From positions 1-64,000 of the forward strand of contig NZ_JAAMOW010000008.1 of NCBI RefSeq assembly GCF_011067135.1: 64,000 nt of DNA, read 5' to 3'. Source of the DNA: Solimonas terrae. Its GTDB lineage: Bacteria > Pseudomonadota > Gammaproteobacteria > Nevskiales > Nevskiaceae. Of the stretch, positions 5,774 to 34,030 are shown one piece after another; the stretch's first letter is position 1; each line of letters starts with the position of its first letter. The position numbers and the translations under genes are program-made. The notes beneath the pieces are model-generated. The model saw only the letters and a list, made by a program, of their open reading frames with translations, did no database searches and was not told the origin of the DNA.

Positions 5774-5957
5774 GGCCGCTTGGCGCGGCCCCGGCCGGAC
5801 GCGGCCGGAGCCGCCCGGACGCGGAAAAACCTCGCGCCCGATGCGCACGCCCGCAGGGCGGGAGGGCCGGGACGCGCGCTGCTCCGTGATGGATCACGGG
5901 CAGGCCCGGCGGTCGTCCGCTCGGCGATTTCGCGCCTCGTTTTGGCGCGCCGGGCCA

Positions 5958-5973
5958 TGGCATCAAACATGCT
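5958..5973 (+). promoter_or_regulatory. Candidate sigma-54 promoter for amtB
   Basis: TGGCAT and TGCT here give the GG-N10-GC spacing of -24/-12 promoters (GG at 5959-5960, GC at 5971-5972). It sits about 50 bp before the amtB start codon. Nitrogen-regulated ammonium transporter genes are commonly sigma-54/NtrC dependent. No clear NtrC dyad was found upstream, so the assignment rests on spacing and gene context. Confidence 0.5.
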
Positions 5974-6024
5974 TCTGAATCTCCGGACGGATCAACGTCG
6001 ATCACGTTTTCGGGGGATTCTTTC

Positions 6025-7356
6025 GTGCGCCTCAGCCTTTCGCGGCTAACGCTTCCGGTCGGCCTGCTGGCCGCTCTTTCCACACTCGCGAGTCTGCCGG
6101 CCTACGCAGACGCGGCGGCCCGGCCCCACCTCGTCACGGCGGACCAGATCAGTGCCGGCGACACCGCCTGGATGCTGGCGTCGACGGCACTGGTGCTGCT
6201 GATGACGATCCCCGGCCTGGCAATGTTCTACGCCGGCATGGTGCGCAAGAAGAACGTGCTCGCCACCGCGCTGCAGAGTTTCTTCGTCACCTGCCTGGTC
6301 AGCGTGCTCTGGGTGCTGGTCGGCTACAGCCTCGCGTTCACGCCGGGCAGCCCCTGGATCGGCGGGCTGGATCGCTTCGCGCTGCAGGGCATGCTTTACC
6401 TGCACGACGCCGGCAAGCTGACCGTCAGCCACGTCGCGCCGACGATTCCCGAATCCGTGTTCGTGATGTTCCAGATGACCTTCGCGATCATCACGCCGGC
6501 GTTGATCGCCGGCGCGTTCGCCGAGCGCATGCGCTTCGGGGCGATGGTGCTGTTCATGGCGATGTGGTCGCTGCTGGTCTATGCACCGGTCGCACACTGG
6601 GTCTGGGAGCCGACCGGCTGGCTGGCCAGCATGGGCGCGCTCGACTTCGCCGGCGGCACGGTGGTGCACATCAATGCCGGCGCGGCCGGTCTGGCCTGCG
6701 CGTACATGCTCGGGCGCCGCACGCACTACGGCAGCGAACCCTTCATTCCGTTCAATCTCGGCTTCACGATGATCGGCGCCTCGCTGCTCTGGGTCGGCTG
6801 GTTCGGGTTCAACGCCGGTTCCGCGGTGGCGGCCGACGGTCGCGCCGGCATGGCGATGCTGGTCACGCAGACCGCGACGGCGATGGCTGCACTGACCTGG
6901 AGCACGATCGAGTGGCTGATCCGTGCCCGCGTGTCGCTGCTTGGCTGCCTGTCCGGCGCGGTCGCCGGTCTGGTCGCGATCACGCCGGCCTCGGGCTTCG
7001 TCAATGTCGGCGGCGCGCTGGCGATCGGCGTCTCGGCCGGCGTCGCCTGCTACTGGGGTGCCACCGGCCTCAAGCGCCTGCTGCGTGCCGATGACTCGCT
7101 CGACGTGTTCGGCATTCACGGTATCGGCGGCATCGTCGGCGCCTTGCTGACGGGCGTGTTTGCCGACAAGAACATCAGTGGCTCGGAAGGCCATTTGCTG
7201 ACGCAGGCGATCGGCGCGTTCGCGACGCTGATCTACAGCGGTACCGTCTCGCTGCTGATCCTGGTGATCCTCAAGTACACCGTCGGCCTGCGTGTCAACG
7301 CCGAAGAGGAACTGACCGGTCTCGACCTGTCGCTGCACGGGGAGGCCATCCCATAA
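6025..7356 (+). CDS. amtB: Ammonium transporter AmtB
   Basis: This 443-residue protein begins with a cleavable signal peptide (LLAALSTLASLPAYADA), as in AmtB, followed by about eleven membrane segments. The signature DFAGGTVVHINAGAAGL and the later FGIHGIGGIVGALLTG supply the two pore histidines, so the channel looks functional. Start GTG 6025 is supported by GGGGGA about eight bases upstream. It takes up ammonium across the inner membrane. A glnK gene, normally just upstream and encoding the PII regulator of AmtB, is absent from this locus. A sigma-54 promoter candidate precedes it. Confidence 0.95.
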   Translation: MRLSLSRLTLPVGLLAALSTLASLPAYADAAARPHLVTADQISAGDTAWMLASTALVLLMTIPGLAMFYAGMVRKKNVLATALQSFFVTCLVSVLWVLVGYSLAFTPGSPWIGGLDRFALQGMLYLHDAGKLTVSHVAPTIPESVFVMFQMTFAIITPALIAGAFAERMRFGAMVLFMAMWSLLVYAPVAHWVWEPTGWLASMGALDFAGGTVVHINAGAAGLACAYMLGRRTHYGSEPFIPFNLGFTMIGASLLWVGWFGFNAGSAVAADGRAGMAMLVTQTATAMAALTWSTIEWLIRARVSLLGCLSGAVAGLVAITPASGFVNVGGALAIGVSAGVACYWGATGLKRLLRADDSLDVFGIHGIGGIVGALLTGVFADKNISGSEGHLLTQAIGAFATLIYSGTVSLLILVILKYTVGLRVNAEEELTGLDLSLHGEAIP

Positions 7357-7584
7357 TCAATTCCGGATCGCCATCGCGCCCGGTGTTTCGCACCGGGGCA
7401 GTGCCCGAAATCACGGCGCATGTCGGCGCGCCGCGGTTCGCGGGCACTGTTCCGGTGACGGGCATCGGCAGGCGCGATGCGGCGGTCCGGGTGACAAGAG
7501 AAAGCGCATGACCAGGCTTCTGTACATGGAGGACCCGTTTCTTGTTTGCGGCCGGTGTGATGCCGGCCGACCGGAGATGTCGTC

Positions 7585-7899
7585 ATGACCGAAAACGAAG
7601 CTTTGCTGGTGGCTACACGGCTGTACGTACGGATGCGCGCCAATGGCGGGCGCGTGATCGATGTGACCTGGCTGACGCAGAACGCCGAGTACGCGCACGA
7701 AATCCTCAGGCTCGCGGCGGGCCATGTGGACGGCGAAGTGCAGAGACTGGGTGCGCGTCTCGAAGAGCTGCTGTTCGGTACCGTGCAGCCGCGCAGCCCG
7801 GCACCGCCTGCGCCGGCCGCCGCGACGGCGGCACGCGAGACAGCTGCCACACTCACCGGCGGCAAGACACCGAACAAATACGTCGGCGTCCTGCGCTGA
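7585..7899 (+). CDS. Small conserved-looking hypothetical protein
   Basis: This 104-residue soluble protein starts at ATG 7585 with CGGAGA about 8-13 bases before it. The first ~70 residues are helical and charged (NEALLVATRLYVRMR, WLTQNAEYAHEILRLA). The tail is a low-complexity Pro/Ala stretch (PAPPAPAAATAA) ending in NKYVGVLR. No signal peptide or membrane segment is present and I recognise no family. It lies alone between amtB and the FUSC gene, 228 bp after the former and 220 bp before the latter, so co-transcription is uncertain. Third-position GC bias matches a real gene in this genome. Confidence 0.6.
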   Translation: MTENEALLVATRLYVRMRANGGRVIDVTWLTQNAEYAHEILRLAAGHVDGEVQRLGARLEELLFGTVQPRSPAPPAPAAATAARETAATLTGGKTPNKYVGVLR

Positions 7900-8119
7900 T
7901 CGCCTCAGCGGCCGGTATTGTCTTGCCGGTCCGGCGCTGAATCTCCCGAGGCAGGTGCCACCGTCGCGCGGCCGTTTCGGGCTTTGCATGCGGCGGGCGA
8001 GGCGCGCCCGCTCCGGCAGCGTCCGGGCTGCCCGGTGAATCCGGCGCGTCTCGACCGGCGCCGGCGCGACGCGCAGGTGGTGGCACAATCGCCCGACCAT
8101 TCCGATCGCGATTCCGCCG

Positions 8120-9556
8120 ATGACCACACCCGCCGCCTTGCCCGCGTTTGCCGCACCGCGTGCGGCGCGCCTGCACGCGCGAACCGCCCTGTCGGTGGTC
8201 GCCGGCATGGCGCTGGCGATGGGCATCGTCACGCTGGCGGGCGGGCGCCGCGAGGCCTGTCTGCTGGTCGCGGCGCTGGTGATGACGCTGTCGCGCAGTC
8301 GCTTGCTGGCGAGCCGGCGCGGACTGCTCGAGGCGCTGTTGCTGTTGCCGTTGATCGCGATGATCACGCATGGCGTCGGCCTGTTGTTCGTGCACTGGCC
8401 GGTCGCCGGCGCGCTTGCGTACGTGGCCGCCATGTTTCTCTCGATCTGGCTGCGACGTTTCGGGCCGCCGGGCTCGCGTGCCGGCGCGCTGCTGGCGCTG
8501 CCGTTCATCACCTTGCTGATCACCCCGGCGGCCGGCGTGCCGCCCGCCCATGCCGTGGCGTTGGCCGTGCTCGCCTTGCTGGTCAGTGCGGCCTTGCGCG
8601 TGCTGACGGCGCCGCAGACCAGGCGGCCGGTGGAGGCTCCGGCGCTCGCGATGCCGGCCGCCGCGTCGAACCTGCGGCCGATCGCCAGCACGCGCATGGC
8701 GATCCAGCTGGCGCTGGCCCTGGTCGCGGCTTTCGTCTCCGGTCATCTGCTGTTTCCGCAACATGTGAGCTGGGTGGTGCTGACCGCGCTGCTGGTCTGC
8801 AGCGGCAATCGCGGCCGCGCCGATGTGCTGTACAAGAGCGGTCTGCGGGTCGTCGGCGCGCTGGTCGGGACGCTGGTGGTCGCCGGCGTCTCGCAGCGCC
8901 TGCCGATCGCGCAATTGCCCGGCCCCCTGCTGAGCCTGATCGTGCTGACGATCGTCGGCTGCGGTCTGTGGCTGCGTGAATGGACGTATGCCGCCTGGGC
9001 GCTGGCGATGACGCTCACCGTCGCCTTGCTGCAGCCGGTCATGGGCGGGGTGGCGCCGGCGCTGCCGGGCGATGTGCTGTGGGAACGCGTGTTCGCCATC
9101 GTGCTCGGTGGGCTTTGCGGCGTGCTGCCGTCGTGGTTCGTGCTGCCGGTGCGTTCGGAAGCCGTACTGCGCCGGCGTCTGGCCGAGCTGCTTGCCGTGC
9201 TCGCCGAGACCTGGGCGGCGCCGACACCCACGGCGCCGCTGCGAATCGAGCAGGCCCTGCTGCGGCTCGAGGAACTCGCGCCGCCGTGGCGTGCCGGGGC
9301 GCGACTTGCATTCCACCAGGCGCCGCTGCGGCGGCCTGCGCGATGGCTGGGATTGAGTGCCGAGTGCGTGCAACTCGCCAGCGCGGCGCCGGTCGGCGCC
9401 GGCCCGCGCCGCGCATTGGGCGAGGCCAGACGTGCCCTGCGCGACCCGGACGCCATCGGTCCGGCACTGCAGGCCCTGCGCGACTGCCTCGCCGACGGGC
9501 TTGCCGCGTCGAACGCGAAGCGTCCGCGGACCGCGACGCACGGAAGCCCCGGCTGA
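8120..9556 (+). CDS. FUSC family inner-membrane protein
   Basis: This 478-residue protein has two blocks of hydrophobic segments, each about 150 residues long, roughly at 25-165 and 195-345. This is the internally duplicated layout of FUSC/aromatic-acid exporter proteins. The second block contains the FUSC-like stretch HVSWVVLTALLVCSGNRG. A soluble helical C-terminal domain of about 130 residues follows. Relatives export fusaric acid or hydroxylated aromatics, often with a periplasmic adaptor; no adaptor gene is next to this one. The substrate cannot be inferred. Confidence 0.7.
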   Translation: MTTPAALPAFAAPRAARLHARTALSVVAGMALAMGIVTLAGGRREACLLVAALVMTLSRSRLLASRRGLLEALLLLPLIAMITHGVGLLFVHWPVAGALAYVAAMFLSIWLRRFGPPGSRAGALLALPFITLLITPAAGVPPAHAVALAVLALLVSAALRVLTAPQTRRPVEAPALAMPAAASNLRPIASTRMAIQLALALVAAFVSGHLLFPQHVSWVVLTALLVCSGNRGRADVLYKSGLRVVGALVGTLVVAGVSQRLPIAQLPGPLLSLIVLTIVGCGLWLREWTYAAWALAMTLTVALLQPVMGGVAPALPGDVLWERVFAIVLGGLCGVLPSWFVLPVRSEAVLRRRLAELLAVLAETWAAPTPTAPLRIEQALLRLEELAPPWRAGARLAFHQAPLRRPARWLGLSAECVQLASAAPVGAGPRRALGEARRALRDPDAIGPALQALRDCLADGLAASNAKRPRTATHGSPG

Positions 9557-9617
9557 GCTTGTTTCCCCGTCGCGGCGGGCGAGCGTGCCTTTCGCTGCCG
9601 GGCGCGGCAGCGAGGAC

Positions 9618-9811
9618 CTAGTCCGCTGAACCAGATGAATGGCACCGAAGACCCCGTTCGCCCCGAGTGCCGCGCGCAGAGCGCGCGGTGTATCGAGGGG
9701 CTGGCGCACCGACGACGCGCAGCGGTCCCTCGATACGTTTCGGCTCACGCCGAAACACTCGGGACGAACGGAATCCGATCACGGTGCGAACCAAGTGGTT
9801 CAGTGGACTAG
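9618..9811. mobile_element. Non-coding MITE-like element with CTAG target duplication
   Basis: A 186-bp element (9622-9807) is flanked on both sides by CTAG (9618-9621, 9808-9811). Its ends are 12-bp inverted repeats, TCCGCTGAACCA and the complement TCCACTGAACCA. Inside lie nested palindromes: CGTTCGCCCCGAGTG and CACTCGGGACGAACG arms, and TATCGAGGG/CCCTCGATA arms, so the whole folds into a branched hairpin. There is no gene. A 4-bp CTAG duplication fits mobilisation by an IS5-type transposase. The right CTAG overlaps the selO stop codon. Confidence 0.7.
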
Positions 9812-11325
9812 GACGAGCAGCTGACCTCGATCAGACGCGCCTCGGGCGGTGGTTCGGCGGCGTAGGTTTCGAAGCCCGGATGTTCGTCATAAGGTTTGCG
9901 CAGCAGCGACAGCAGGGTTTCGATCTCGCTCGCGCCGCCGCGCTCGGCGTCCTCGATCGCCTGCTGTGCGAGATGATTGCGCAGCACGAACTTCGGGTTG
10001 ACCGCGTTCATGGCCGCGCGCCGTTCGTCATCGCCCAATGCCTGCGCCTGCAGGCGCGCGCGATAGTCCGGCAGCCAGGCATCGAAGGCAGCCAGATCGC
10101 GCATCTCGTCGCGCAGCGGACCGGCCGAGGCGTCGCTGGCCATCGCCACGTCGGCGAGCAGGCGGAAGCTGCGCGTGAAGTCGCCGCGTCCGGCATGCAG
10201 CAGGCCGAGGAAGCGATTGATCAGCTCGACATCCTGATCCTGTTCGTCGCGCAGGCCGAGCTTGGCGCGCCACAGGCCGGTCATCGTTTTCGAATACTGC
10301 GGGCCGTAGCGTTCGAGCAGGCTTTCGGCGATTTCGACGGCACGCTGCTCGTCGGCATCGAGCAGCGGCAGCGTCGCCTGCAGCAGGCGCGAGCAGTTCC
10401 AGTAGCCGATGCCCGGCTGGCGATCGTAGGCGTAGCGGCCGCCCTCGTCGCTGTGATTGCAGATGTGATGCGCGTCGAAGGCATCGAGAAAACCGTAGGG
10501 GCCGTAGTCCAGCGTCAGACCGAGAATCGACATGTTGTCGGTGTTCATCACGCCGTGGCAGAAGCCGACTGCCTGCCATTGCGCAATCAGCCGCGCAGTG
10601 CGCTCGATGACCTCGGCCAGCCACGCCGCGTACCGATCCGGCGTTTCGCGCAGCTGCGGAAAGTGTTCGTCGATGACGTGATCGGCCAGCGGTGCCAGCC
10701 GCTGCGGCTGATTGCGGTAGTAGAACACCTCGAAATTGCCGAAGCGCAGATGCGAAGGGGCGACGCGGCAGATCACGGCGGCGCGTTCGATCGTCTCGCG
10801 GCGTACCGGATCGTCGCCGACGATCAGGCTCAGCGCGCGCGTGGTCGGAATGCCGAGATGCTGCATCGCGGCGCTCGCCAGATATTCGCGCACGCTGGAG
10901 CGGATCACGGCGCGACCGTCGGCGAAGCGCGAATACGGCGTCTGCCCGGCGCCCTTCAGTTGCAGGTCCCAGCTTTCGCCGCGCGCGTTGCGCACCTGTC
11001 CGAGCAGCATCGCGCGGCCGTCGCCGAGCTGCGGCACGTAGACGCCGAACTGGTGCCCGGCGTACAGCGCCGCGAACGGCTCGGCGCCCGGCAGCGGTCG
11101 GTTGCCGGCGAAGGTTTCGACGAAGGCCTCGCTGCTCAGCGTCGACGGATCGAGATCGAACAGCGCGGCGACCTCGGCATCGGCGTGCAGCAGCCGCGGC
11201 TGCGACAACGGCGTCGGTGCCACGCGTGCGCCATAGGCGTCGCCGAGCCGGGCGAGACGATTGTCGAGGTGCAGTTGATCGAGCGTGAGCGGCACGGAGT
11301 GCGGTGTCGGGAAACGAATGGCCAC
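9808..11325 (-). CDS. selO: Protein adenylyltransferase SelO (YdiU)
   Basis: This pseudokinase-fold enzyme transfers AMP to Ser/Thr/Tyr of proteins, a redox-linked function in the family. Recognisable features are YAGHQFGVYVPQLGDGRA, the lysine in WDLQLKGAGQTPYSR, the region HGVMNTDNMSILG with the metal-binding residues, and the conserved C-terminal CSS in which eukaryotic homologues have selenocysteine. The start is uncertain: GTG 11325 gives 505 residues, close to E. coli (478), while an ATG at 11424 would add 33 unsupported residues. The TAG stop lies in the CTAG at the edge of a MITE. Confidence 0.9.
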   Translation of the reverse strand: MAIRFPTPHSVPLTLDQLHLDNRLARLGDAYGARVAPTPLSQPRLLHADAEVAALFDLDPSTLSSEAFVETFAGNRPLPGAEPFAALYAGHQFGVYVPQLGDGRAMLLGQVRNARGESWDLQLKGAGQTPYSRFADGRAVIRSSVREYLASAAMQHLGIPTTRALSLIVGDDPVRRETIERAAVICRVAPSHLRFGNFEVFYYRNQPQRLAPLADHVIDEHFPQLRETPDRYAAWLAEVIERTARLIAQWQAVGFCHGVMNTDNMSILGLTLDYGPYGFLDAFDAHHICNHSDEGGRYAYDRQPGIGYWNCSRLLQATLPLLDADEQRAVEIAESLLERYGPQYSKTMTGLWRAKLGLRDEQDQDVELINRFLGLLHAGRGDFTRSFRLLADVAMASDASAGPLRDEMRDLAAFDAWLPDYRARLQAQALGDDERRAAMNAVNPKFVLRNHLAQQAIEDAERGGASEIETLLSLLRKPYDEHPGFETYAAEPPPEARLIEVSCSS

Positions 11326-11500
11326 TTTAGCCGTTCGGGCGCCGGTCCGAATGGGGGATCGCGACGAGAACCGCCGCGCAACGGACCGATTCGCTTCGCG
11401 GCCGGCGGCGACAGGCATCCCCATACCCCCGGCACGCTGCCCGCCCGCGTTCAGTCGGCTCTGTTATAAGGGCGGTCAGGATCACCGGCGGGAGAGGATC

Positions 11501-12817: not shown

Positions 12818-15800
12818 ATGAAGGCATGCGCGAGCTGCCAGGCGGAAAACCCGGAAAACGCGCGCTTCTGCAATCAGTGCGGCGCGTCGCTGGCGGCGTC
12901 GCCAGGTCCGGCACCGGCGGCCGGCTATACACCGCGGCATCTGCGTGACGGTGCGCTGCGCGCGGCCGGCGCGATCGCCGGCGAGCGCAAGCGCGTGACG
13001 GTGCTGTTCGCCGACATCAAGGGTTCGACGCGGCTCGCCGAACAGGCCGGCGCCGAGCTCTGGCACGAGGTGCTGGATCGCTTCTTCGGGTTTCTCACGC
13101 AGGCGGTGCACCGCTATGACGGCACGGTCAACCAGTACACCGGCGACGGCATCATGGCCCTGTTCGGTGCGCCGGTCGCGCTGGAGGATCACGCGCTGCG
13201 CGCGGCGCACGCGGCGCTCGACATGCAGCAGGCCGTGCGTCGCTATGCCGACGAGCTGCGGCTTGCACACGGCCTCAACCTGTCGATGCGCATCGGCCTG
13301 AACAGCGGCGAGGTCGTGGTCGGTCGCATCGGCGACGACCTGCGCAGCGACTACACGGCGCAGGGACCGACGGTGAATCTGGCCGCGCGGCTCGAACATC
13401 TCTGCGAGCCCGGCCGTGTCTACGTTTCACGGGCGACCGCGCTGCAGCTCGAAGGCTATTGCCGGCTGCGGCCGCTGGGTGCCGCCCAGCTCGCCGGTCA
13501 CGACGAGCCCCAGGAAGTCTTCGAACTCGAAGACGCCGGCGTGCGTCACGAACGCCTGCAGCGCAGTCTCGCGCGCAGCGGTTCGCCGTTTCTCGGCCGC
13601 GCGCCGGAACTGGCGCAGCTGCAGCGGGCGCTCGACGATGCGCGGGGCGGGCAGGGCCGCGTGCTGGCGGTGATCGGCAGCGCCGGCCTCGGCAAGTCGC
13701 GGCTCTGTCATGAATTCGTCGAAGGCTGCGCCCGCGCCGGTGTCGCCGTGCATCGCTGCAGCGGCGTGCCGTACGCGCGTCGCGTGCCGCTGCTGCCGAT
13801 CCGCGATCTGCTGCGCGGCCGGCTCGGCGTGCCGGCCGCTGCCAGCGACGAGCAGGCGCGGCAGTGGATTGCCGGCGCGCTGACCTTGCAGATCAGCGAT
13901 GCCGCAGCGCTGCTGCCGCATGTCTTCGAATTTCTCGGCATCGCGGCGCATGGCGGCAGCGGCATGGTCGAGGCGCAGGGCAGCGCGCAGGAGCAGATGC
14001 TCGACCGGCTCGCGACCTTCCTGTGTTGCGGCGAGCAGCCACGCGTGCTGCTGATCGAGGATCTGCACTTCCTCGATCCGGCCACCGAAGCCTTCATCCT
14101 GCGGCTGGCGCGCGTTGCCGTGCGCGAACGCTGCCTGTTGCTGCTGAACTACCGGCCGGACTATCCGGTCGGCGCGCTCGACCCGGTGATCGGCGATCGT
14201 CTGCAACTGCGGCCACTGGCGGCGGCCGATCTGGAAGACCTCGCGCGCACGCTGCTCGGTGCCGATCCGTCGCTGGCGCCGATTGTCGCGACACTGGTGG
14301 AACGCGCCGCCGGCCATCCGTATTTCGTCGAAGAGGCGGTGCTGGCCCTGGCCGAAGGCGGCTGGCTCAGCGGCTCGGCGCGCGCCTGGCGGCTGGCACG
14401 GCCGATCGACGAATGGCCCTTGCCGGACAGCGTGCAGGCGCTGCTGGCGGCGCGCATCGACCGGCTCGAAGACGCCATGCGTGCCTTGCTGCAGGCGGCG
14501 GCGGTCATCGGCCAGCGCTTCGATGCGGCGCTGCTGTCGGCCGTGGTCGGTGACGATGCGACGCGTGTCGATGCCCGTCTGCTGGGTCTGGCCAACGACG
14601 GCTTCGTGCGCAGCGATGACGAGGGCTGGGTGTTCGCGCACCCGCTGTTGCAGGAAGTCGCGTATCGCGGACAGCTGGAATCGCGCCGCCGCGGCGTGCA
14701 CGCCGAACTCGCGCGGCTGCTGGAACAGCGACACGGGCCGATCGAACCGCCGCGCGAAATCTCGACGCGCATCGCGCATCACTGGCGCGGCGCCGGCGAC
14801 GCCGGTCGCGCCGGCCTCTGGGGCCTGGCCGCGGCGCGCTGGGTATCGACGCGCAATTTCGAGACCGCGACCGACCAGTGTCGCGTCGCGATCGCCGATC
14901 TCGATCGTGCCGGCGGCGATGATCCGGCGTTGATCCGTACCGGTGCGCTGGCGCGCGCCATGCTGCTGCGTCTCGCGCAATTCACGCCGATCGCGGCGGA
15001 CGAGCTCGAGCGCGCCTATGAGGAAGCGCGGCGCATGGTGGCCGCGGACGACGTTGCGCTGCGCGCCGAACTCGGTGTGTCGTACGGCAACCGCCTCCTG
15101 CATCGCGGCCGGGTCGACGAAGCCGCGCGCACGCACGAACAGGCCATCGCGCTGGCGATGGCGCATGGCGAAACCTCGGTCATCAACCGCTTCCGCGTCG
15201 CGTTCCTGATTTCGTTCAACGCCGCCGGCCGGCTGCGACAGGTACTCGAACTGCTCGACGCCACCGGCGACGACTGGCGCACCCGGCCGGTCGACAAGGA
15301 GAACTACATGTCGCGCGCCTATTACGGCCTGATGCTGGGCTGGATGGGGCGCCTCGACGAGGCCTACCGACATCTGCAGGCAGCGATGCAGATCGCCATT
15401 GCCGAGCAGGGCGCGGCAATGAGCTGGATGTACGCGGCGCTGGTCGATCTGGCCTTGCTCAGCGGCGATTTTCCGCCGGCGCTGATGGCGGCCGAACGGG
15501 GCATGCGCTGTGCGGCGGAGAGCGGCAGCCCGTTCCTGCGCGCGATCGCGCAGCGGGCGCTGGGCCTGGCATTGGGCCTCAACGATCGACGCGCCGAGGC
15601 GATCGAGGTGCTGCGCGAGGCGCAACCCATGGTCGGGCCGAATGGCTTGGCGCATCTGTACGAGGCCAACCTGCTGGCGACCCTGGCGCTGATCGAACAG
15701 GAGGCCGGCCGCGAGCAGGAAGCCGAACGCACCGTGCAGGCGGCCTGCGTCAGTGCGCGGGGTTCCGGCTCGCGGGTCTGGGAAATTCTTGCCGTGCTGG

Positions 15801-16057
15801 TCTGGCTGCGGCAGCCGGTACGCGCGGCGCGGCGCGGCGAGGCACGGGAGGCGATCGCGCGGGTCGACGAGCTGATGGCGTTCACCGGTGCCGAAGGCTT
15901 CCGTCCCTGGCTGCATCTGGCGCGCGCGCACTGGAGCGAGCACCAGGAAGAGGTCGAGGCTTTCACGGCCCTGGCGCGGCAGGCGTTCGTGACGATCGGC
16001 GCGCCAGCCTATGCCGGCAAGCTGCAAGCGGAGGCCATGCTCGACGCCGCTGGCTGA
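12818..16057 (+). CDS. Class III adenylate/guanylate cyclase with AAA ATPase and TPR region
   Basis: This 1079-residue protein has a zinc ribbon at 4-23 (CASC...CNQCG), a class III cyclase domain at about 58-225, a P-loop ATPase from about 280 (GSAGLGKSR), and a long helical TPR-like region from ~700 to the end. The cyclase has both metal aspartates, Asp66 (FADIKGS) and Asp110 (YTGDGIM), 44 apart, and the VNLAARLE motif with transition-state Asn and Arg, so it should be active. Whether it makes cAMP or cGMP cannot be told. Start ATG 12818 follows GGAG. Downstream lie a LolA-like gene and an RND exporter with a cNMP-binding domain; the gap to the first is 118 bp. Confidence 0.85.
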   Translation: MKACASCQAENPENARFCNQCGASLAASPGPAPAAGYTPRHLRDGALRAAGAIAGERKRVTVLFADIKGSTRLAEQAGAELWHEVLDRFFGFLTQAVHRYDGTVNQYTGDGIMALFGAPVALEDHALRAAHAALDMQQAVRRYADELRLAHGLNLSMRIGLNSGEVVVGRIGDDLRSDYTAQGPTVNLAARLEHLCEPGRVYVSRATALQLEGYCRLRPLGAAQLAGHDEPQEVFELEDAGVRHERLQRSLARSGSPFLGRAPELAQLQRALDDARGGQGRVLAVIGSAGLGKSRLCHEFVEGCARAGVAVHRCSGVPYARRVPLLPIRDLLRGRLGVPAAASDEQARQWIAGALTLQISDAAALLPHVFEFLGIAAHGGSGMVEAQGSAQEQMLDRLATFLCCGEQPRVLLIEDLHFLDPATEAFILRLARVAVRERCLLLLNYRPDYPVGALDPVIGDRLQLRPLAAADLEDLARTLLGADPSLAPIVATLVERAAGHPYFVEEAVLALAEGGWLSGSARAWRLARPIDEWPLPDSVQALLAARIDRLEDAMRALLQAAAVIGQRFDAALLSAVVGDDATRVDARLLGLANDGFVRSDDEGWVFAHPLLQEVAYRGQLESRRRGVHAELARLLEQRHGPIEPPREISTRIAHHWRGAGDAGRAGLWGLAAARWVSTRNFETATDQCRVAIADLDRAGGDDPALIRTGALARAMLLRLAQFTPIAADELERAYEEARRMVAADDVALRAELGVSYGNRLLHRGRVDEAARTHEQAIALAMAHGETSVINRFRVAFLISFNAAGRLRQVLELLDATGDDWRTRPVDKENYMSRAYYGLMLGWMGRLDEAYRHLQAAMQIAIAEQGAAMSWMYAALVDLALLSGDFPPALMAAERGMRCAAESGSPFLRAIAQRALGLALGLNDRRAEAIEVLREAQPMVGPNGLAHLYEANLLATLALIEQEAGREQEAERTVQAACVSARGSGSRVWEILAVLVWLRQPVRAARRGEAREAIARVDELMAFTGAEGFRPWLHLARAHWSEHQEEVEAFTALARQAFVTIGAPAYAGKLQAEAMLDAAG

Positions 16058-16175
16058 TCGGGCGAGCAGGCGGTCACGGATGCGTGGCCGCGGTCGCGCA
16101 CGAGGGCGGCCGACAGTGCGAGAATCCGTTATCGACGAACACGCGGTCACCGACGACCACGAGGGGGAATGTCGC

Positions 16176-16961
16176 ATGAGAACGATCGCCGGGTGCCTGT
16201 GCGCCCTGACGCTGTCGCTGGCCTCCGCCGCGTGGGCCGACGCCGGCCCGGTGACGGCGGCATCGGTGATGAGCTGCATGCGTGCCAACATTCCGAAGAC
16301 GCTGACCGTCAAGGATGTCCAGCTCGACGCGAGCGACGGCAGCGGCAGTACGCGGACCATGCAGGGCAAGCTGTATGCGACGCGCGAAGACGACAAGCTG
16401 CGCGCGGTGATCCGCATTGCCGCGCCTTCGGATCTGGCCGGTGCGTCCTACCTGCTGCGCGAGCGCGATGACGGCGACGAGATGTACGTCTACATCCCGG
16501 CGCTGTCGAAGGTCCGTCGCGTCAGCGGTGCGGCGGTCGATGGTTCGCTGTGGGGTACGGATCTGTCGTTTGCCGACGTCAAGCAGCTTGGCAATGCCTT
16601 CAGCGGCAGCGATCCGAAGATCGGCAAGGACGAAGTGCTCGATGGCCGGCCGGTGCACGTGCTCAGCGTGATGCCGTCCGCCGGCGACAGCGCCCGCTTT
16701 ACGCGGGTGCTGGCCTGGGTCGACGCCAAATCCTGTGTCGCACTGCGCGTCGATTTCTACGAAGGGCAGGCGGTGCGCAAGCGCCTTAGCATCGACGCCC
16801 GGGACCTGCGTCAGGACGGCAGCTACTGGTACGCCTCGCAGCTGCAGATGACCGATCTCAAGCAAGGTTCGAAGACCTTGCTGAAGGTGCTCGATATCCA
16901 CGCCGACAAGTCGCTGCCGGGCCGCCTGTTCAACCCCGGCACGTTCTACATCGGCGGCTGA
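16176..16961 (+). CDS. LolA-like outer-membrane lipoprotein-sorting family protein
   Basis: This 261-residue protein has a signal peptide (MRTIAGCLCALTLSLASAAWA) and a single beta-rich domain of the LolA/COG2834 type. Typical family features are the MQGKLYATREDDKLRAVIRI strand pair, the YVYIPALSKVRRV segment and SLWGTDLSFAD. Proteins of this branch are regularly encoded directly before MMPL-type RND exporters and are thought to hand lipids or lipoproteins across the periplasm. Here the RND gene starts four bases after the stop, so the two are surely co-translated. ATG 16176 has GAGGGGGA about seven bases upstream. Confidence 0.8.
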   Translation: MRTIAGCLCALTLSLASAAWADAGPVTAASVMSCMRANIPKTLTVKDVQLDASDGSGSTRTMQGKLYATREDDKLRAVIRIAAPSDLAGASYLLRERDDGDEMYVYIPALSKVRRVSGAAVDGSLWGTDLSFADVKQLGNAFSGSDPKIGKDEVLDGRPVHVLSVMPSAGDSARFTRVLAWVDAKSCVALRVDFYEGQAVRKRLSIDARDLRQDGSYWYASQLQMTDLKQGSKTLLKVLDIHADKSLPGRLFNPGTFYIGG

Positions 16962-16965
16962 GCGG

Positions 16966-19695
16966 ATGCAGCGACTCGTCCGATGGATTGCCGGCCGCCC
17001 GGTCGTCGTGCTGGTGCTGAGCCTGCTGCTCAGCGCACTTGCGGCGCTGGCGCTGTTCGATCCGCGGACCCACGCACTGCGCCTGCAGATCGATCCGTCG
17101 ATCGAGCGCCTGCTGCCGTCGAACAACGCCGATCGTGCGTTGTACGAGCAGGTTCGCGAACATTTCGGTGACGGCGATGCGGTGATCGTCGCGGTCGAGT
17201 TCAAGGACCTGTACAGCACCGAAGGCCTGCGTCTGGTCCAGCAGCTCAATGCGCGTTACCGGCAGTTGCCGGGTGTCAGCGGCGTGGCATCGCTGGCGAC
17301 CGCGCCGGACCTGGTCGCCATCGACGGCGATCTCGACGTCAGCACTTTCACGCAGCAGGCAGCGGCGCATCCCGAGCGCATCGCCGGCTTTGCACGGCAG
17401 ATCGCCGGCAATCCGCTGTATCGCAATACCCTGGTGTCCGCCGATGGTCGCCACGTTGCATTCGCCCTGTTCGTCGACGGCGTCAACGAGCAGCAGTTCC
17501 TCGCGCTCGACTATCCGCAACTGATACGCGCCGCGACGCGTGAAGTCGCCGGCGATGCGGCGGTCGCGATCACTGGCACGCCGGTCGGCCGTGCCGCGAC
17601 CGCGCGCGCCCTGCTCGACGCGCTGCGGTTCACGGTGCCCGCCGTGTTCGCGATCATCCTCGTGCTGCTGTACGTCTCGTTCCGCGACTGGCGCGCGACG
17701 ATAGCCGCCGCGTTGACGGTGGGGCTGACCCTGCTGTGGACGCTGGCCAGCTCCGTGCTGTTGCGCATGCCGTTCAATCTGGTTACCGCGATCGTGCCGG
17801 CACTGGTCGTCACGCTCGGCCTTTCGTACACGATCTATCTGCTCTCGGCGTATTTCGACGCCTTCGGCAAACCGTGGCTGTCCGAGCGTGGCGTGCGCAC
17901 GCGCTGGGTGCTCAATCGCGCCGGCCTCGGTCTGCTGCTGTCGGCGGCGACCACCGCCGCCAGCTTCCTGTCGCTGCTGATCAGTTCCTTGCCGGCGATT
18001 CGCAATTTCGCGGTGCTGGCGTCGCTGGGTTCGCTGTTCGGTGTGCTGCTGTCGCTGAGTTTCCTGCCATCGCTGCTGACGCTCAGCGGCTGCGCCCGGC
18101 GTGAAACGGCGCCGCCCGGTGCACGCTGGTTTTCGGCCACCGCGACGCGGCTGGCGGCGTTCGACCAGAAGTGGCGGGCCGCGATCATCGGCGTGGCCGT
18201 GCTGCTGTTGCCGGTCGACGCCTTTCTGGCGTCGCGCATTCACGCCGGCACCGAGTTCAGCAAGAGTTTCTCCGAACGCTCGACGGTGCGCCGCGACTAC
18301 GAGCTGATCAATCGCGATTTCGACGGCGCCAACCTGATGTCGATCTACATCGACACGCATGTCAACGACGCGCTGACCGATCCGGCGCTGATCGGCCAGC
18401 TCGACTCTCTGGAGCAGTGGCTGCGTGCGCAGCCGGAAGTCGGCGCGGCGGTGTCGTATGTCGATCATCTGAAGCTGATCAATCGCGCTTTCAACGATGG
18501 CGATCCGGCCGCCTATGCGATTCCGGACAGCGCGGCGGCCGTCAAGCAGCTGCTGGTGTTCGGCGGCGGCGATGCGATCCGCAACGTCATCGATCCGCGC
18601 TTCCGCTCGGCCCTGATGAAGTTGCGCATCAAGGTCGACGGCTCGCGCGAGGTCGATGCCCTGGTCAAGCGCATCGACCTGCGCCTGCAGGCGATGCCGG
18701 CGCCGCTGAATGGTGTGGTGACCGGCACGCCGATTCTGGCAACGCGTACCGTGCAGGAGATTGCCTCCGGCCAGTTCCTGTCGATCGCGATCGCCAGCGT
18801 CGCGATCTGGCTGCTGCTGACCTTCATGTTCACCTCGGCGCGTGCCGGTTTGATCGCACTGCTGCCGACGGTCGTACCGGTCGCGATCTACTTCGGCACA
18901 CTCGGCCTGCTCGGCATCGCCCTGAGCCCGACCACCTGTCTGATCGCCTGCATCGTGATCGGCATCGCCGTCGACGACACCATCCAGTTTCTGGCCCGCT
19001 TCAATGCCGATGCGCGCGCCGGGGCCGACGAGGCACCCGCCGTGGCGAGCGCGCTTGCCGCCGTGCTGCGTCCGATCACCCTGAGCACGATCGCGCTGTG
19101 CTCGGGCTTTCTGGTTTTCGCCGGCAGTACGCTGGCGACCCAGGTGCAGTTCGGCCTGCTGTCGGCGTTCACGCTGTTCCTGGCCTGGGTGATGAACATC
19201 ACGCTGACGCCGGCGTTGGGCTCCAAGCTGCGCATCGTCACGCTGTGGGACATGCTGCGGCTCGATCTCGGCGAGTCGCCGCAGCATACGATTCCGCTGC
19301 TGTCGGGTTTGTCGCTGCGCCAGGCGCGCGTGTTCGCGCTGATGTCCAGGCTCGAAAAGCATCCGCAGGCGACGCGCGTGATCCGGCAGGGCGATCTGGC
19401 GCGCGACATCTACGTGGTCGTCGACGGCGAACTCGAGGTCTGGATCGAACGGCAGGACGAGCACAAGTCGCTCGCCCGGCTCGGCCGCGGCGCGGTGCTC
19501 GGCGAGGCCGGTTACTTCGGCCAGCGGCGTACCGCCAATGTGCAGGCACTGTCGCCGGTGCGTCTGCTGCGTTTCGACTCCCAGGATCTGGAGCGGCTGC
19601 GCATCCGCTACCCCAAGGTCGCGGCGCTGGTCCTGCGCAATCTCAATCGCATTCAGGCCGAACGCCTGGCGCGCGCGACGGCGATGCTGCAGTAG
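16966..19695 (+). CDS. MMPL/RND exporter with C-terminal cyclic-nucleotide-binding domain
   Basis: This 909-residue protein has a membrane helix at 10-30, a periplasmic domain, five to six helices at ~220-390, a second TM start (AAIIGVAVLLLPVDAFLAS) near 405 with a second periplasmic domain, and a second helix block at ~605-750. Family motif GIAVDDTIQFLARF is present. Residues ~775-905 form a Crp-type cNMP-binding domain (VIRQGDLARDIYVVVDGELEVW, then LGRGAVLGEAGYFGQRRTANVQA), whose GEAGYF-x-RRTA resembles the phosphate-binding cassette with its arginine. The likely role is export of a lipid or hydrophobic compound gated by cAMP or cGMP, with a cyclase encoded two genes upstream. The gating is inference. 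Confidence 0.8.
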   Translation: MQRLVRWIAGRPVVVLVLSLLLSALAALALFDPRTHALRLQIDPSIERLLPSNNADRALYEQVREHFGDGDAVIVAVEFKDLYSTEGLRLVQQLNARYRQLPGVSGVASLATAPDLVAIDGDLDVSTFTQQAAAHPERIAGFARQIAGNPLYRNTLVSADGRHVAFALFVDGVNEQQFLALDYPQLIRAATREVAGDAAVAITGTPVGRAATARALLDALRFTVPAVFAIILVLLYVSFRDWRATIAAALTVGLTLLWTLASSVLLRMPFNLVTAIVPALVVTLGLSYTIYLLSAYFDAFGKPWLSERGVRTRWVLNRAGLGLLLSAATTAASFLSLLISSLPAIRNFAVLASLGSLFGVLLSLSFLPSLLTLSGCARRETAPPGARWFSATATRLAAFDQKWRAAIIGVAVLLLPVDAFLASRIHAGTEFSKSFSERSTVRRDYELINRDFDGANLMSIYIDTHVNDALTDPALIGQLDSLEQWLRAQPEVGAAVSYVDHLKLINRAFNDGDPAAYAIPDSAAAVKQLLVFGGGDAIRNVIDPRFRSALMKLRIKVDGSREVDALVKRIDLRLQAMPAPLNGVVTGTPILATRTVQEIASGQFLSIAIASVAIWLLLTFMFTSARAGLIALLPTVVPVAIYFGTLGLLGIALSPTTCLIACIVIGIAVDDTIQFLARFNADARAGADEAPAVASALAAVLRPITLSTIALCSGFLVFAGSTLATQVQFGLLSAFTLFLAWVMNITLTPALGSKLRIVTLWDMLRLDLGESPQHTIPLLSGLSLRQARVFALMSRLEKHPQATRVIRQGDLARDIYVVVDGELEVWIERQDEHKSLARLGRGAVLGEAGYFGQRRTANVQALSPVRLLRFDSQDLERLRIRYPKVAALVLRNLNRIQAERLARATAMLQ

Positions 19696-21633: not shown

Positions 21634-22476
21634 TCACCCAAAGCGGCCGGTGATGTAGTCCTCGGTGCGCTGTTCGCGCGGCCGGGTGAAGACCTGGTCG
21701 GTGGTGCCGAACTCGACCAGTTCACCCAGATACATGAAGGCCGAGAAATCGGCGGCGCGCGCGGCCTGCTGCATGTTGTGGGTGACGATCGCGATCGTGT
21801 AGTCGGCCTTCAGCTGATAGATCAGTTCTTCGATCTTGGCGGTCGAGATCGGATCGAGCGCCGAGGTCGGTTCGTCGAGCAGCAGCACCTGCGGGCGCAC
21901 GGCAATCGAACGGGCGATGCAGAGGCGCTGCTGCTGGCCGCCGGACAGGCCTAGGCCCGAGGCCTGCAGCTTGTCCTTGACCTCGTCCCACAGCGCGGTG
22001 CGCTTCAGCGCATCCTCGACGCGGTCATTCATGTCCGCCTTCGGAACCTTCTCGTACAGGCGGATGCCGAACGCGATGTTGTCGTAGATCGACATCGGAA
22101 ACGGCGTCGGTTTCTGGAACACCATGCCGATCTGCGCACGCAGCAGGTTCACGTCGGTCTTCGGGTCGATGATGTTCTTGCCGTCGAGCAATACCTCGCC
22201 GGCCGCGCGCTGACCCGGATAGAGGTCGTACATGCGGTTGAGGATACGCAGCAGGGTCGACTTGCCGCAGCCGGACGGGCCGATGAAGGCCGTGACCTTG
22301 CGGTCGTAGAGCGGCAGCGAAATGCTTTTCAGCGCGCGATAGTCGCCGTAGAAGAAGTCGAGATTGCGGATCGACACCTTCTCCGTCAGCGCATCTTTGA
22401 TCGGCTCTGTAAGTTCGGCTTTCATCAGTTCGACGTTCGGACGAGTTTGCATGGTAGAGGATTCGCTGGGTTCCAT
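21634..22476 (-). CDS. pstB: Phosphate ABC transporter ATP-binding protein PstB
   Basis: This 280-residue ATPase has Walker A (IGPSGCGKS), the Q-loop region ([18 protein letters not shown]), signature LSGGQQQRL, Walker B ([13 protein letters not shown]) and the switch histidine ([10 protein letters not shown]). The extended Q-loop sequence is diagnostic of PstB. It energises the PstCA channel for high-affinity phosphate uptake at the inner membrane. It is the last gene of pstSCAB, starting six bases after pstA ends. The N-terminal ~25 residues before [13 protein letters not shown] are longer than in E. coli. Confidence 0.97.
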
Positions 22477-22482
22477 GGGCGA

Positions 22483-23346
22483 TCAGTGCCCGCTGGAGCG
22501 CGGACGCGCGATGGTGCGGGCAAAGACATTGAGGGCGAGCACGGTCAGCGTGATCAGCAGGGCGCCGGTCCACGCCAGCCGCTGCCAGTCCGGATACGGC
22601 GACAGTGCGAACTGGAAGATCACGACCGGCAGGTTGGCCATCGGCGCGTTCATGTTCGTGCTCCAGAACTGGTTGTTCAGGGAGGTGAACAGCAGGGGCG
22701 CGGTTTCGCCGCTGACGCGGGCGATCGCCAGCAGCGTGCCGGTGATGAGGCCGGCGCGGGCCGCGCGATAGCAGACCTGCTGGATCACCAGCCAGCGCGG
22801 CGCGCCGAGCGCGCTGGCCGCTTCGCGCAGGCTGTCCGGCACCAGCAGCAGCATGTCTTCGGTGGTGCGCACGACGACCGGCAGCACGAGGATCGACAGC
22901 GCCACGCAGCCGGCCCAGGCCGAGAAGTGACCCATCGGCTGCACCATGATCTCGTAGACGAACAGGCCGACGACGATCGACGGTGCCGACAGCAGCACGT
23001 CGTTGATGAAGCGCACGACCGAGGTCAGCTTGGTGTTGCGACCGTATTCGGCCATGTAGGTGCCGGCGAGAATGCCGACCGGGGTGCCGATCAGGGTCGC
23101 GATCAGGGTCTGCACCAGGCTGCCGTACATGGCGTTGAGCAGGCCGCCGGCGCTGCCGGGCGGCGGCGTCATGTGCGTGAAGACCGACAGCGAGACGCCG
23201 GCCGCGCCTTTCAGGAACAGGGTCGCGAGAATCCAGGCCAGCGCGACCATGCCGGCGGCGGCCGACGAGAAGGACAACAGCATGGCTACGCGGTTGAAGC
23301 GCCGACGGCGCGCGTACAGGGCCATGTTCATGTGAGCGTTGTTCAT
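22483..23346 (-). CDS. pstA: Phosphate ABC transporter permease PstA
   Basis: This 287-residue permease has six predicted membrane helices and the cytoplasmic coupling motif around [18 protein letters not shown] (the EAA loop). The C-terminal block [18 protein letters not shown] is typical of PstA. The ATG immediately follows the pstC stop codon (TAG then ATG), so translation is coupled. A second ATG four codons in is possible. With PstC it forms the membrane channel for phosphate delivered by PstS. Confidence 0.96.
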
Positions 23347-24321
23347 CTAGCGGCCCTCGGACTGCTTCATGCGCAGCAGCATCAGGCGCGCGGCGCCGAG
23401 CACGATGAACGTGATGATGAACAGGATCAGGCCGAGCGCGATCAGCGACGAGGTGTACAGCGTGCCGTCGGCTTCGGTGAATTCGTTGGCGATGCTCGCG
23501 GAAATCGTCGTGCCGGGCGCCAGCAGCGAGTGGCTGATGCGGTGTGCATTGCCGATCACGAAGGTGACCGCCATCGTCTCGCCGAGCGCGCGGCCGAGGC
23601 CGAGCATGACGCCGCCGATGACGCCGGTCTTGGTGAACGGCAGGACCACATGACGCACCACTTCCCAGGTCGTGCAGCCCAGGCCGTAGGCCGACTCCTT
23701 GAGCATCGGCGGCACGGTCTCGAACACGTCGCGCGTGATCGAGGTGATGAAGGGCAACACCATGATGCTCAGGATCAGGCCGGCGGTGAGTACGCCGATG
23801 CCGTAGGGCGGGCCGGCGAACAGGGTCGACAGGCCGGGCACGCCGTCGAACGCCTTGATCAGCAGCGGCTGCACGTACTTCTGCAGCAGAGGGGCGAGCA
23901 CGAACAGGCCCCAGATGCCGTAGATGATGCTGGGGATGCCGGCGAGCAGTTCGATCGCGGTGCTGATCGGCTGCTTGAGCTTCGGCGGGCACAGCTCGGT
24001 GATGAACACGGCGATGCCGATGCTGATCGGGAAGCCGATCAGCATGGCGATGAGCGACGTGACCAGGGTGCCGTAGATCGGCGCGGCGGCGCCGAACTTT
24101 TCGGTCACCGGATTCCAGGATTCGGTATGGAAGAACGAAAACCCGAAGGCTTTCAGTGCGGGCAGCGAGCCATCGATCAGCGAGATGATCACGCCGCTGA
24201 GCATGATCAGGACGGTGATGGCGGCGCAGCGCGTCAGGATCCGCAACAGGCTTTCCATGAGCTTGTGGCGGGCCAGCGTGGGCGAGGGGTTACCGGCAAC
24301 GGCGGTGACGGCGGTATTCAC
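23347..24321 (-). CDS. pstC: Phosphate ABC transporter permease PstC
   Basis: This 324-residue permease has a membrane segment near 30-50, then the PstC signature EKFGAAAPIYGTLVTSLIAMLIG, and the EAA loop (LKESAYGLGCTTWEVVRHV). Family length is about 310-320 residues. The start is GTG 24321 (MNTAV), with AGGGAG five bases before it. It lies 106 bp downstream of pstS, separated by a strong hairpin that may lower expression of the permease genes relative to the binding protein. Confidence 0.96.
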   Translation of the reverse strand: MNTAVTAVAGNPSPTLARHKLMESLLRILTRCAAITVLIMLSGVIISLIDGSLPALKAFGFSFFHTESWNPVTEKFGAAAPIYGTLVTSLIAMLIGFPISIGIAVFITELCPPKLKQPISTAIELLAGIPSIIYGIWGLFVLAPLLQKYVQPLLIKAFDGVPGLSTLFAGPPYGIGVLTAGLILSIMVLPFITSITRDVFETVPPMLKESAYGLGCTTWEVVRHVVLPFTKTGVIGGVMLGLGRALGETMAVTFVIGNAHRISHSLLAPGTTISASIANEFTEADGTLYTSSLIALGLILFIITFIVLGAARLMLLRMKQSEGR

Positions 24322-24371
24322 GACACTCCCTGAAGCGCGATGCAGCGATGGATTCTAACGGGACAGCGAGA

Positions 24372-24395
24372 GGAGGGGGCGATGTCGCCCCCTCC
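24372..24395 (-). terminator. Intra-operon hairpin between pstS and pstC
   Basis: GGAGGGGGCGA pairs perfectly with TCGCCCCCTCC around a two-base loop. No T-run follows on the minus strand, so it is more likely an mRNA-stabilising or attenuating hairpin at the end of pstS than a full terminator. Confidence 0.6.
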
Positions 24396-24427
24396 CGGTT
24401 CAGCAGCTTGCGTGAAGCAGATTCAGC

Positions 24428-25474
24428 TTAGTTCCAGATCGACTTGCCGCCGTCCTTGATGTTGTCGACCCAGGCCTTCTCGACGAGCTTGACGACGCTG
24501 TCCGGCATCGGCACGTAGTCGAGTTCGCCGGCCATCTTGCCGCCGTTCTTGTACGACCAGTCGAAGAACTTCAGCGCGGTCAGCGAGTCGGCCGCATTGT
24601 CCGGCTTCTTGTACATGATGATGAACGTCGCAGCCGTCATCGGCCAGCTGTCGGCGCCCGGCTGGTCGGCGAGGATCAGGTAGAAGTTCTTGGTCTTCGA
24701 CCAGTCGGCGTTGGCGGCCGCGGCGGCGAAGGTCTCGGCGCTCGGGGCGACGGTCTTGCCATCCTTGTTGATCATGTCGGTGTACGTCATCTTGTTCTGC
24801 AGCGCATAGGCGTACTCGACGTAGCCGATCGAACCTTCGGTCTGCGTGACCGTGGCCGAAACGCCTTCGTTGCCCTTGCCGCCGATACCGACCGGCCATT
24901 CGACCGAGGCGTCGACGCCAACCTTGGTGCGCCAGCCGTCACTGACCGCACCCAGGTAGTAGGTGAAGTTGAAGGTCGTGCCCGAACCGTCCGAACGATG
25001 CGCAACGAGGATCGCGGTCGACGGCAGCTTGACGTCCGGGTTCAGCTTGGCGATCGCCTTGTCGTTCCACTTGGTGATCTTGCCGAGGTAGATGTCGGCG
25101 AGGGTCTTGCCGTCCAGCTTCATTTCGCCCGGCTTGATGCCCGGCAGGTTGACGACCGGCACCACGCCGCCCATCACCATCGGCCACTGGATGGCGCCCA
25201 TTTCATCGAGTTCTTCCGGCTTCAGCGGCTTGTCGGAAGCGCCGAAGGTCACGGTCTTGGCCTTGATCTGCTTGATGCCGCCGCCCGAGCCGATCGACTG
25301 GTAGTTCAGGCCGATGTTGGTTTCGGTCTTGTAGGCGTCCGCCCACTTGGCGTAGATCGGATACGGGAAGGTGGCGCCGGCGCCGGAGATGTCGGCAGCC
25401 ATGGCGTTGGTGGCGAGCAGCGCACCGGCCGTGGCCAGCGCGAGTTGCGCGAGGGTTTTGCGGATAACGGTCAC
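24428..25474 (-). CDS. pstS: Periplasmic phosphate-binding protein PstS
   Basis: This 348-residue protein has a signal peptide (LAQLALATAGALLATNAMA). Phosphate-ligand regions are visible: GAGATFPYPIYAKW, then GSGGGIKQI, and HRSDGSGTTFNFTYYL with the Ser-Gly-Thr loop that binds phosphate. Length and order match PstS. Start GTG 25474 has AAGGGAG about six bases before the intervening TTCCT. It captures phosphate for PstCAB. A candidate Pho box lies 64 bp upstream. Confidence 0.96.
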   Translation of the reverse strand: MTVIRKTLAQLALATAGALLATNAMAADISGAGATFPYPIYAKWADAYKTETNIGLNYQSIGSGGGIKQIKAKTVTFGASDKPLKPEELDEMGAIQWPMVMGGVVPVVNLPGIKPGEMKLDGKTLADIYLGKITKWNDKAIAKLNPDVKLPSTAILVAHRSDGSGTTFNFTYYLGAVSDGWRTKVGVDASVEWPVGIGGKGNEGVSATVTQTEGSIGYVEYAYALQNKMTYTDMINKDGKTVAPSAETFAAAAANADWSKTKNFYLILADQPGADSWPMTAATFIIMYKKPDNAADSLTALKFFDWSYKNGGKMAGELDYVPMPDSVVKLVEKAWVDNIKDGGKSIWN

Positions 25475-33920: not shown

Positions 33921-34030
33921 GGTGGCCCGTGCCGGCCCTCCGCGACGGAAAGCCGTGAACCCCGCCAGGCCCGGAAGGGAGCAACGGTGTCGGTGATGCC
34001 GGGCGCCGGAGCAAGCTGGTACGGGCTGCC
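33921..34030 (+). ncRNA. ffs: Signal recognition particle 4.5S RNA
   Basis: The core CAGGCCCGGAAGGGAGCA (33966-33983) is the universal SRP domain IV with its GGAA tetraloop and Ffh-binding symmetric and asymmetric loops. The outer ends pair over 16 consecutive positions including G-U pairs: GGTGGCCCGTGCCGGC at 33921-33936 with GCTGGTACGGGCTGCC at 34015-34030. The 110-nt length fits the short bacterial type (E. coli 114). It is the RNA scaffold for Ffh in co-translational targeting. Confidence 0.93.

Follow-up and report, generated by a model that had tools for sequence, protein, structure and literature searches.

The question raised by the locus at positions 12,818–19,695 of a 64,000-nucleotide stretch of Solimonas terrae DNA (contig NZ_JAAMOW010000008.1, positions 1 to 64,000; the whole stretch is referred to here as the window) is whether a lipid-type exporter can be controlled directly by a cyclic nucleotide produced next to it. 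The open reading frames (ORFs) and Pfam searches confirmed three genes on the + strand, encoding a class III nucleotide cyclase, a LolA-like protein and an MMPL-type RND exporter with a C-terminal cyclic nucleotide monophosphate (cNMP)-binding domain (CNBD). On balance, we favour with moderate confidence the possibility that this lipid-type exporter is gated by the cyclic nucleotide of its dedicated neighbouring cyclase and would carry a second-messenger switch of its own.

The exporter gene (16,966–19,695, + strand) encodes a protein of 909 residues, whose transporter part matched the MMPL profile of Pfam with 103.6 bits (cut-off 20.5, E 1.3e-29). An AlphaFold model of the complete protein was obtained with a mean predicted local distance difference test score (pLDDT) of 86.3 and a predicted template modelling score (pTM) of 0.77, and structure alignment found the RND fold in it, with MmpL4 and MmpL5 (9b43, 9b46, 9gi0) aligning over 682–688 residues at 3.5–3.6 Å. 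By sequence, the RND part came closest to HpnN and Patched, HpnN being the top match in the PDB (6wu0, E 2e-8). Membership in two narrower families was rejected, as the scores were 102.6 bits against a cut-off of 751.85 for HpnN (TIGR03480) and 213.8 bits against 351.9 for HAE3 (TIGR00921). An Asp-Asp pair, D670 and D671 (18,973–18,978, + strand), was found in an alignment of 42 rows, D671 being present in 41 of them, and we take it by analogy with RND transporters in general to be the proton relay of transmembrane helix 10 (TM10).

The preliminary description of this locus, made from the DNA letters and their ORFs, had the exporter end in a CNBD, and this was borne out by a PF00027 match at residues 799–879 (19,360–19,602, + strand; 61.7 bits, cut-off 27.5, E 6.6e-17), after which the model places two helices (872–881 and 883–908) up to the C-terminus. 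The assignment is based on Pfam, phmmer and the secondary structure of the model; the VIA-align structure matches all covered the RND part. The best PDB matches of the domain were PKG I and PKA RI-alpha, and with the family profile 9ya0, a long multi-CNBD protein, came first and PKG and PKA chains next. The CNG beta-1 channel aligned with residues 757–895, which includes a juxtamembrane linker (residues 758–795; 19,237–19,350, + strand). The phosphate-binding cassette GEAGYFGQRRTA (residues 846–857; 19,501–19,536, + strand) showed the Gly-Glu ... Arg-[Thr/Ser/Ala]-Ala pattern, in which the Glu and Arg bind ribose and phosphate in the known cyclic-nucleotide receptors. Across the 42 aligned rows, G846, E847, R855, A857 and N892 were invariant, while residue 856 was T in 37, M in 3 and S and H in 1 each. 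A degenerate CNBD was rejected as the default because of the invariant E847 and R855, though the cassette is short. Furthermore, the mean pairwise identity was 0.70 in the linker, the highest of the regions compared, and 0.55 in the CNBD, against 0.40 in the transporter, 0.45 in its membrane core and 0.36 in the periplasmic parts. The CNBD and linker being better conserved than the transporter that they follow, the domain is unlikely to be a decoration.

A chance fusion or an assembly artefact was ruled out, since the same frame was found at nearly full length in many genomes, down to 26% identity. The fusion was present in at least 21 of 369 genomes of the class and in 18 of 398 genomes of a phylum sample taken outside it (E ≤ 1e-150). 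The expectation that a CNBD is unusual on RND pumps fits the literature found, where searches aimed at RND-CNBD proteins returned no description of such a protein or of an RND pump under cyclic-nucleotide control, but the fusion itself is not rare. The closest named matches of the C-terminal 175 residues were those of Solimonas soli and S. marina (85%), and the fusion was also found in Nevskia, Hydrocarboniphaga, Panacagrimonas, Sinimarinibacterium, Stagnimonas and Salinisphaerales bins, with more distant relatives in deltaproteobacterial, Binatia and Myxococcota bins. Two loci labelled Verrucomicrobia (L170) and Rhodospirillales (L180) were 73% and 68% identical to the C-terminal part of the window protein and probably come from mislabelled bins. 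In Thalassospira marina, a LolA gene is followed by an ‘MMPL family transporter’, which has the CNBD by Pfam, and a hypothetical gene; in this single annotated record the family has no other annotation. The exporter-CNBD protein is a conserved family without a name.

The cyclase gene (12,818–16,057, + strand; 1,079 residues) was assigned from Pfam, solved-structure matches and relatives. Its product contains an N-terminal Zn_Ribbon_1 domain (residues 4–25), the Guanylate_cyc domain (57–230, E 1.6e-24), AAA_16 (257–435) and a MalT-like TPR match (725–1,027) that at 28.7 bits lies below the Pfam cut-off of 45. The earlier picture of a cyclase with an AAA/TPR module upstream of a LolA-like protein and an MMPL-type RND exporter agrees with these results, the TPR part at its sub-threshold score. 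Membership in the TOMM kinase/cyclase family TIGR03903 was rejected (253.4 bits, cut-off 705.75). Class III cyclases use a metal-binding Asp pair and a transition-state Asn and Arg in catalysis, and their first substrate-specifying position is Lys in adenylyl and Glu in guanylyl cyclases. When the catalytic domain (12,986–13,507, + strand) was aligned to 2w01, the Cya2 protein of Synechocystis and the nearest solved cyclase in the PDB sequence comparison, D66, D110, N187 and R191 lined up with their counterparts. The metal-binding aspartates are intact, as had been noticed before, and the enzyme is predicted to be catalytically competent. The first substrate-specifying position is Gln106, where Cya2 has the GTP-specifying Glu, and the second is Thr180. 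As Gln is neither Lys nor Glu, the product is not readable from the sequence; a mycobacterial cyclase with Gln at this position is reported to prefer ATP. Cya2 itself is a guanylyl cyclase (PMC4886424). Of the 25 same-strand cyclases that neighbour the fusion, 24 shared the motif NQYTGDG (21 from the relatives set described below, and those of the window, L195 and L241), and the remaining one, L201, has LQYAGDS.

The association between cyclase and exporter was measured in a relatives set of 66 fusion loci, obtained from a search of 117 genomes, and in a control set of 40 RND loci without a CNBD. The relatives set took 66 of the 73 fused or partial copies found besides that of the window; the seven left out were six fragments at contig ends and a copy whose contig measured 6.5 kb. 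At least 4.2 kb of upstream DNA was available for 62 of the 66 loci. The controls were hand-picked roughly by score from order-mates, plus one locus of genome G099, with 8 kb on each side where the contig allows; 38 had at least 4.2 kb upstream and two (L255, L273) less than 1.3 kb. The locus sets L039–L104 and L146–L219 share genomes and were never summed, and L287 and L307 are the same place. A same-strand cyclase was found upstream in 19/66 fusion loci against 0/40 controls (Fisher p 4.6e-5, uncorrected for kinship), and in 19/62 against 0/38 when limited to loci with at least 4.2 kb upstream (p 3.9e-5, rows not being independent). In four of the 40 controls, a cyclase lay about 5 kb downstream in the opposite orientation.

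The association was also seen without linkage. The two genes occurred together in 37 of 85 genomes of the order; 26 had only the fusion, 2 had only the cyclase and 20 lacked both (p 4.4e-5). Some of these genomes are incomplete; those without the fusion were listed by hand, and G056 was scored as fusion-positive from a match limited to residues 7–205 at the end of a contig. The cyclase gene was linked to the fusion in 20 of the 39 cyclase genomes, and in 37 of them the fusion was present somewhere in the genome. At four unlinked cyclase places (L283–L286), the cyclase was the sole gene in common. In the class-wide sample, in which two candidates per genome were scored, the cyclase (E ≤ 1e-90) was found in 5 of 369 genomes, all of which belong to the 21 scored as fusion-positive (P 3.7e-7). 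This includes 3/3 cyclase genomes from outside the order (P 1.2e-4). The two genes adjoin in four of these five genomes (the window, L091, L195/L220 and L241) and lie on different contigs in G121. The preliminary description had looked to relatives for this co-occurrence, and it was found there (19/66 against 0/40, 37/39 and 5/5); together with the conserved cassette, its specificity supports the proposed pair of second-messenger producer and putative receptor.

In a separate scan of named genomes, the cyclase was upstream in 17 of 74 loci, a number that includes L213, where a weak match 7.9 kb upstream at the locus edge was not accepted as linked. The linked loci span five families of the order (f1, f2, f4, f5 and f6) and, outside it, L195, L201 and L241. 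The layouts vary: a different AAA/TPR cyclase lies directly downstream in L201, overlapping the RND stop by 4 bases, and in L241 the cyclase takes the place of LolA directly upstream of the RND-CNBD gene, with a response-regulator cyclase nearby. Within about 14 kb of L241 (729–14,366), the RND-CNBD gene is accompanied by a histidine kinase rich in GAF domains and by three matches to class III cyclases, one of them in a protein that also has a receiver domain. L044 and L084 have a tandem pair of AAA/TPR cyclases upstream of LolA-RND-CNBD, and the longest cyclase and LolA frames overlap by four bases in L085 and L087. A linked cyclase as a general rule was rejected because most relatives loci lack one. 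At L102 of genome G099 (5,083–11,473), an RND-CNBD gene without LolA comes after a 117-residue stand-alone cNMP protein, and genes for a hybrid histidine kinase and a response regulator lie behind it, which is another signalling context for the fusion; the cyclase found there, 7 kb downstream on the opposite strand, was not accepted as linked.

Such a neighbourhood might simply be inherited from an ancestor without functional meaning, with the CNBD serving as a structural or oligomerisation domain. The linked set is indeed mostly from one order, and the cyclase and RND distances of 22 linked loci correlate (Mantel r 0.79, 0/5,000 permutations), as expected from shared descent of the hosts and equally from joint inheritance of the two genes. 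A quickly built RND tree with long-branch warnings (99 rows, 92 labelled, 23 cyclase-linked) required 14 label changes, of which starred branches imposed 11; the mean after shuffling was 20.7. The cyclase linkage is clustered on the RND tree but labile. Against mere inheritance stand the absence of a linked same-strand cyclase from all CNBD-less loci (40, of which 38 had enough upstream DNA), the differing layouts of L201 and L241, the co-occurrence without linkage and outside the order, and a pump that is less conserved than its linker and CNBD. We regard this explanation as very improbable.

The LolA-like gene (16,176–16,961, + strand) encodes a periplasmic protein of 261 residues with a signal-peptide-like N-terminus. 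It matched LolA_like PF17131 with 114.7 bits (cut-off 30, E 5.3e-33) and the PDB entries 4z48, 3bk5 and 9tp6, and its position upstream of the RND gene recurs in relatives. The long ORF opens at 16,011, and the ATG at 16,176 is followed by an apparent signal peptide, as judged by eye; the query for profile searches started at 16,173, one codon before this ATG. The gap to the exporter gene is exactly 4 bases (16,962–16,965), which confirms by measurement the spacing first described, and the gap from the cyclase gene is 118 bases. LolA was found upstream of the exporter-CNBD gene in 64/66 relatives loci and in 62/74 loci of the named scan. Of the 40 CNBD-less control loci, 21 also had a LolA neighbour; pairing with LolA is therefore common among MMPL proteins, whereas pairing with the cyclase tracks the CNBD.

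The cargo of the exporter is probably a lipid-like molecule, as is supported indirectly by the HpnN-like sequence, the RND/MmpL fold, the LolA partner and the PqiABC and AsmA neighbours seen elsewhere. In the phylum sample, with 1.5 kb of flank, a same-strand LolA was upstream in 14/18 loci and PqiC was present in 10/18. The order PqiA-PqiB-PqiC-LolA-RND-CNBD-AsmA was found in L307 (2–8,534), and PqiABC also precedes LolA-RND-CNBD in L234–L237 and L240. PqiB is an MCE (MlaD-type) lipid-transport protein, so the Pqi neighbours point to envelope lipids. The cyclase-linked loci differ from these operons: in them, the Pqi proteins of L307 (tblastn, E ≤ 1e-8) matched nothing except part of a PqiB-like gene at one end of L054. 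In nine loci with short flanks (L288–L291, L293, L295, L296, L301 and L302), PqiC was the only Pqi gene visible, with an AsmA-like match in L289, and in L062 (14,699–16,871) PqiA- and PqiB-like genes lie about 4–6 kb upstream of an RND-CNBD gene without linked cyclase. In Thalassolituus oleivorans, MMPL and LolA-like domains occur in one protein, TOL_3187, for which the available text of the report mentions no CNBD; it was 42-fold up on the n-C28 alkane (PMC6304351). By analogy, such a rise on a long alkane would fit a hydrophobic cargo.

Several observations weigh against a dedicated cyclase gating a lipid exporter. No linked cyclase was found in 47/66 relatives loci (4 of those 47 having too little upstream DNA to tell), and 26 of the 63 fusion genomes of the order had no such cyclase at E ≤ 1e-40. 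The class set, in which some loci are on short contigs, had a linked same-strand cyclase in only 2/23 fused loci and LolA upstream in only 12/23. The 14 changes on the RND tree mean that the linkage was lost, gained or moved often, and the correlation of distances may be mere shared descent of the hosts. Structure alignment scored the drug pumps CmeB and AcrB equally high by Z, so that lipid exporters are not singled out. The cassette is one residue shorter than that of PKA and PKG, and its tip (849–851) has pLDDT < 50, as no other run of at least three residues does. Finally, the Gln at the substrate position of the cyclase leaves both cAMP and cGMP as candidate products. Since the linked cyclase is missing from so many loci, the CNBD must be able to function with nucleotide supplied from elsewhere as well.

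As to the ligand, T or S follows the cassette Arg in 19/19 cyclase-linked loci of the relatives set; among the 47 loci without a linked cyclase, 6 have M, L or H there. The resulting R-[T/S]-A of all 19 linked loci resembles the PKG domain that the CNBD matches best, and with Cya2 as the nearest solved cyclase it hints weakly at cGMP or mixed specificity, though Gln replaces the Glu of Cya2. The CNBD might instead sense another ligand, such as ppGpp or another nucleotide, with the neighbouring cyclase contributing to the same physiological response by way of other receptors. We consider this unlikely. The 47 loci without linked cyclase still keep the Gly-Glu ... Arg cassette and the genome has 13 other cNMP domains; on the other side, the cassette retains the ribose- and phosphate-binding Glu and Arg, and the cyclase subfamily is nearly confined to fusion genomes (37/39 in the order and 5/5 in the class sample). 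A precedent for such a different ligand is given by HetC of Nostoc, an ABC peptidase exporter with an N-terminal CNBD needed for function, which bound ppGpp (Kd 59 μM) and not cAMP, cGMP being absent from the ligands reported as tested in the available text (PMC10986499).

A profile search of the S. terrae genome found 4 PF00211 cyclases, 3 of them sited away from the locus, and 14 cNMP domains, with no match to the class I adenylate cyclase PF01295. Elsewhere (G000:C18:308243-315052), an 876-residue open frame that contains two cNMP domains and a second class III cyclase are about 6 kb apart and may form a further producer-receptor pair. The other cNMP domains and distant cyclases would allow control by transcription: Crp-type regulators responding to the product of the cyclase would switch on LolA-RND, and the role of the CNBD would be limited to fine-tuning or to buffering the nucleotide. 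The fusion of the receptor domain to the transporter itself and the highly conserved linker argue for direct action, and we hold transcriptional control to be quite improbable. The promoter scan gave no sigma-70-like site, a result that says little on transcription.

The proposed direct gating of the exporter by its neighbouring cyclase would then run as follows. The AAA/TPR part of the cyclase may sense a cytoplasmic signal, upon which the cyclic nucleotide would be made and bind the C-terminal CNBD of the exporter. The CNBD and the conserved linker may shift against the last membrane helix and alter the pump activity, in either direction. The RND protein would take a lipid-like molecule from the inner membrane, powered by the proton gradient, and pass it to the LolA-like carrier.

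Parts of this arrangement are known from other systems. The exporter resembles the MmpL and HpnN lipid exporters, which are RND transporters, in its HpnN-like sequence and MmpL4/MmpL5-like structure, and differs from them in carrying, beyond its last membrane helix, a conserved linker and a CNBD. Cyclic-nucleotide-gated (CNG) channels and SthK have a linker and CNBD at the same position; those are ion channels, whereas the present protein has the RND exporter fold. HetC shares a CNBD fused to an exporter and differs in its ABC type and N-terminal domain, and the available part of its report mentions no cyclase partner. A review on the direct control of transporters notes MFS proteins fused to CNBDs, which are secondary transporters of another superfamily; its accessible text does not name the RND-CNBD fusion (PMC10710835). 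In Xanthomonas campestris, according to the part of the report available, the linked class III cyclase and CNBD effector XC_0250/XC_0249 form a pair in which cGMP is made by one and bound by the other (PMC3770947), the effector there being a diguanylate cyclase and here a transporter. The Xanthomonas pair and HetC are thus precedents for single steps, and ppGpp binding by HetC is also the main warning.

Besides the three genes, a 922-residue antisense ORF over the RND gene was judged to be a high-GC shadow. PstB-, PstA-, PstC- and PstS-like genes were recognised by eye on the - strand of the window (21,634–25,474), and a bacterial small signal recognition particle (SRP) RNA was found at 33,929–34,025 (56.7 bits).

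In our view, the real-time adjustment of lipid flow to the bacterial outer membrane is poorly known. We propose, tentatively and with some doubt, that the family may represent a class of cyclic-nucleotide-gated secondary active lipid exporters, undescribed in the literature found, that is widespread in Pseudomonadota and in which a second messenger directly switches the traffic of envelope lipids, together with LolA-like carriers and, in some lineages, PqiABC, and that the Nevskiales and scattered relatives pair it with a dedicated AAA/TPR cyclase, possibly in a cGMP circuit. If the CNBD gates the pump, cyclic nucleotides would act directly on the composition of the envelope, rather than through Crp-type transcription.

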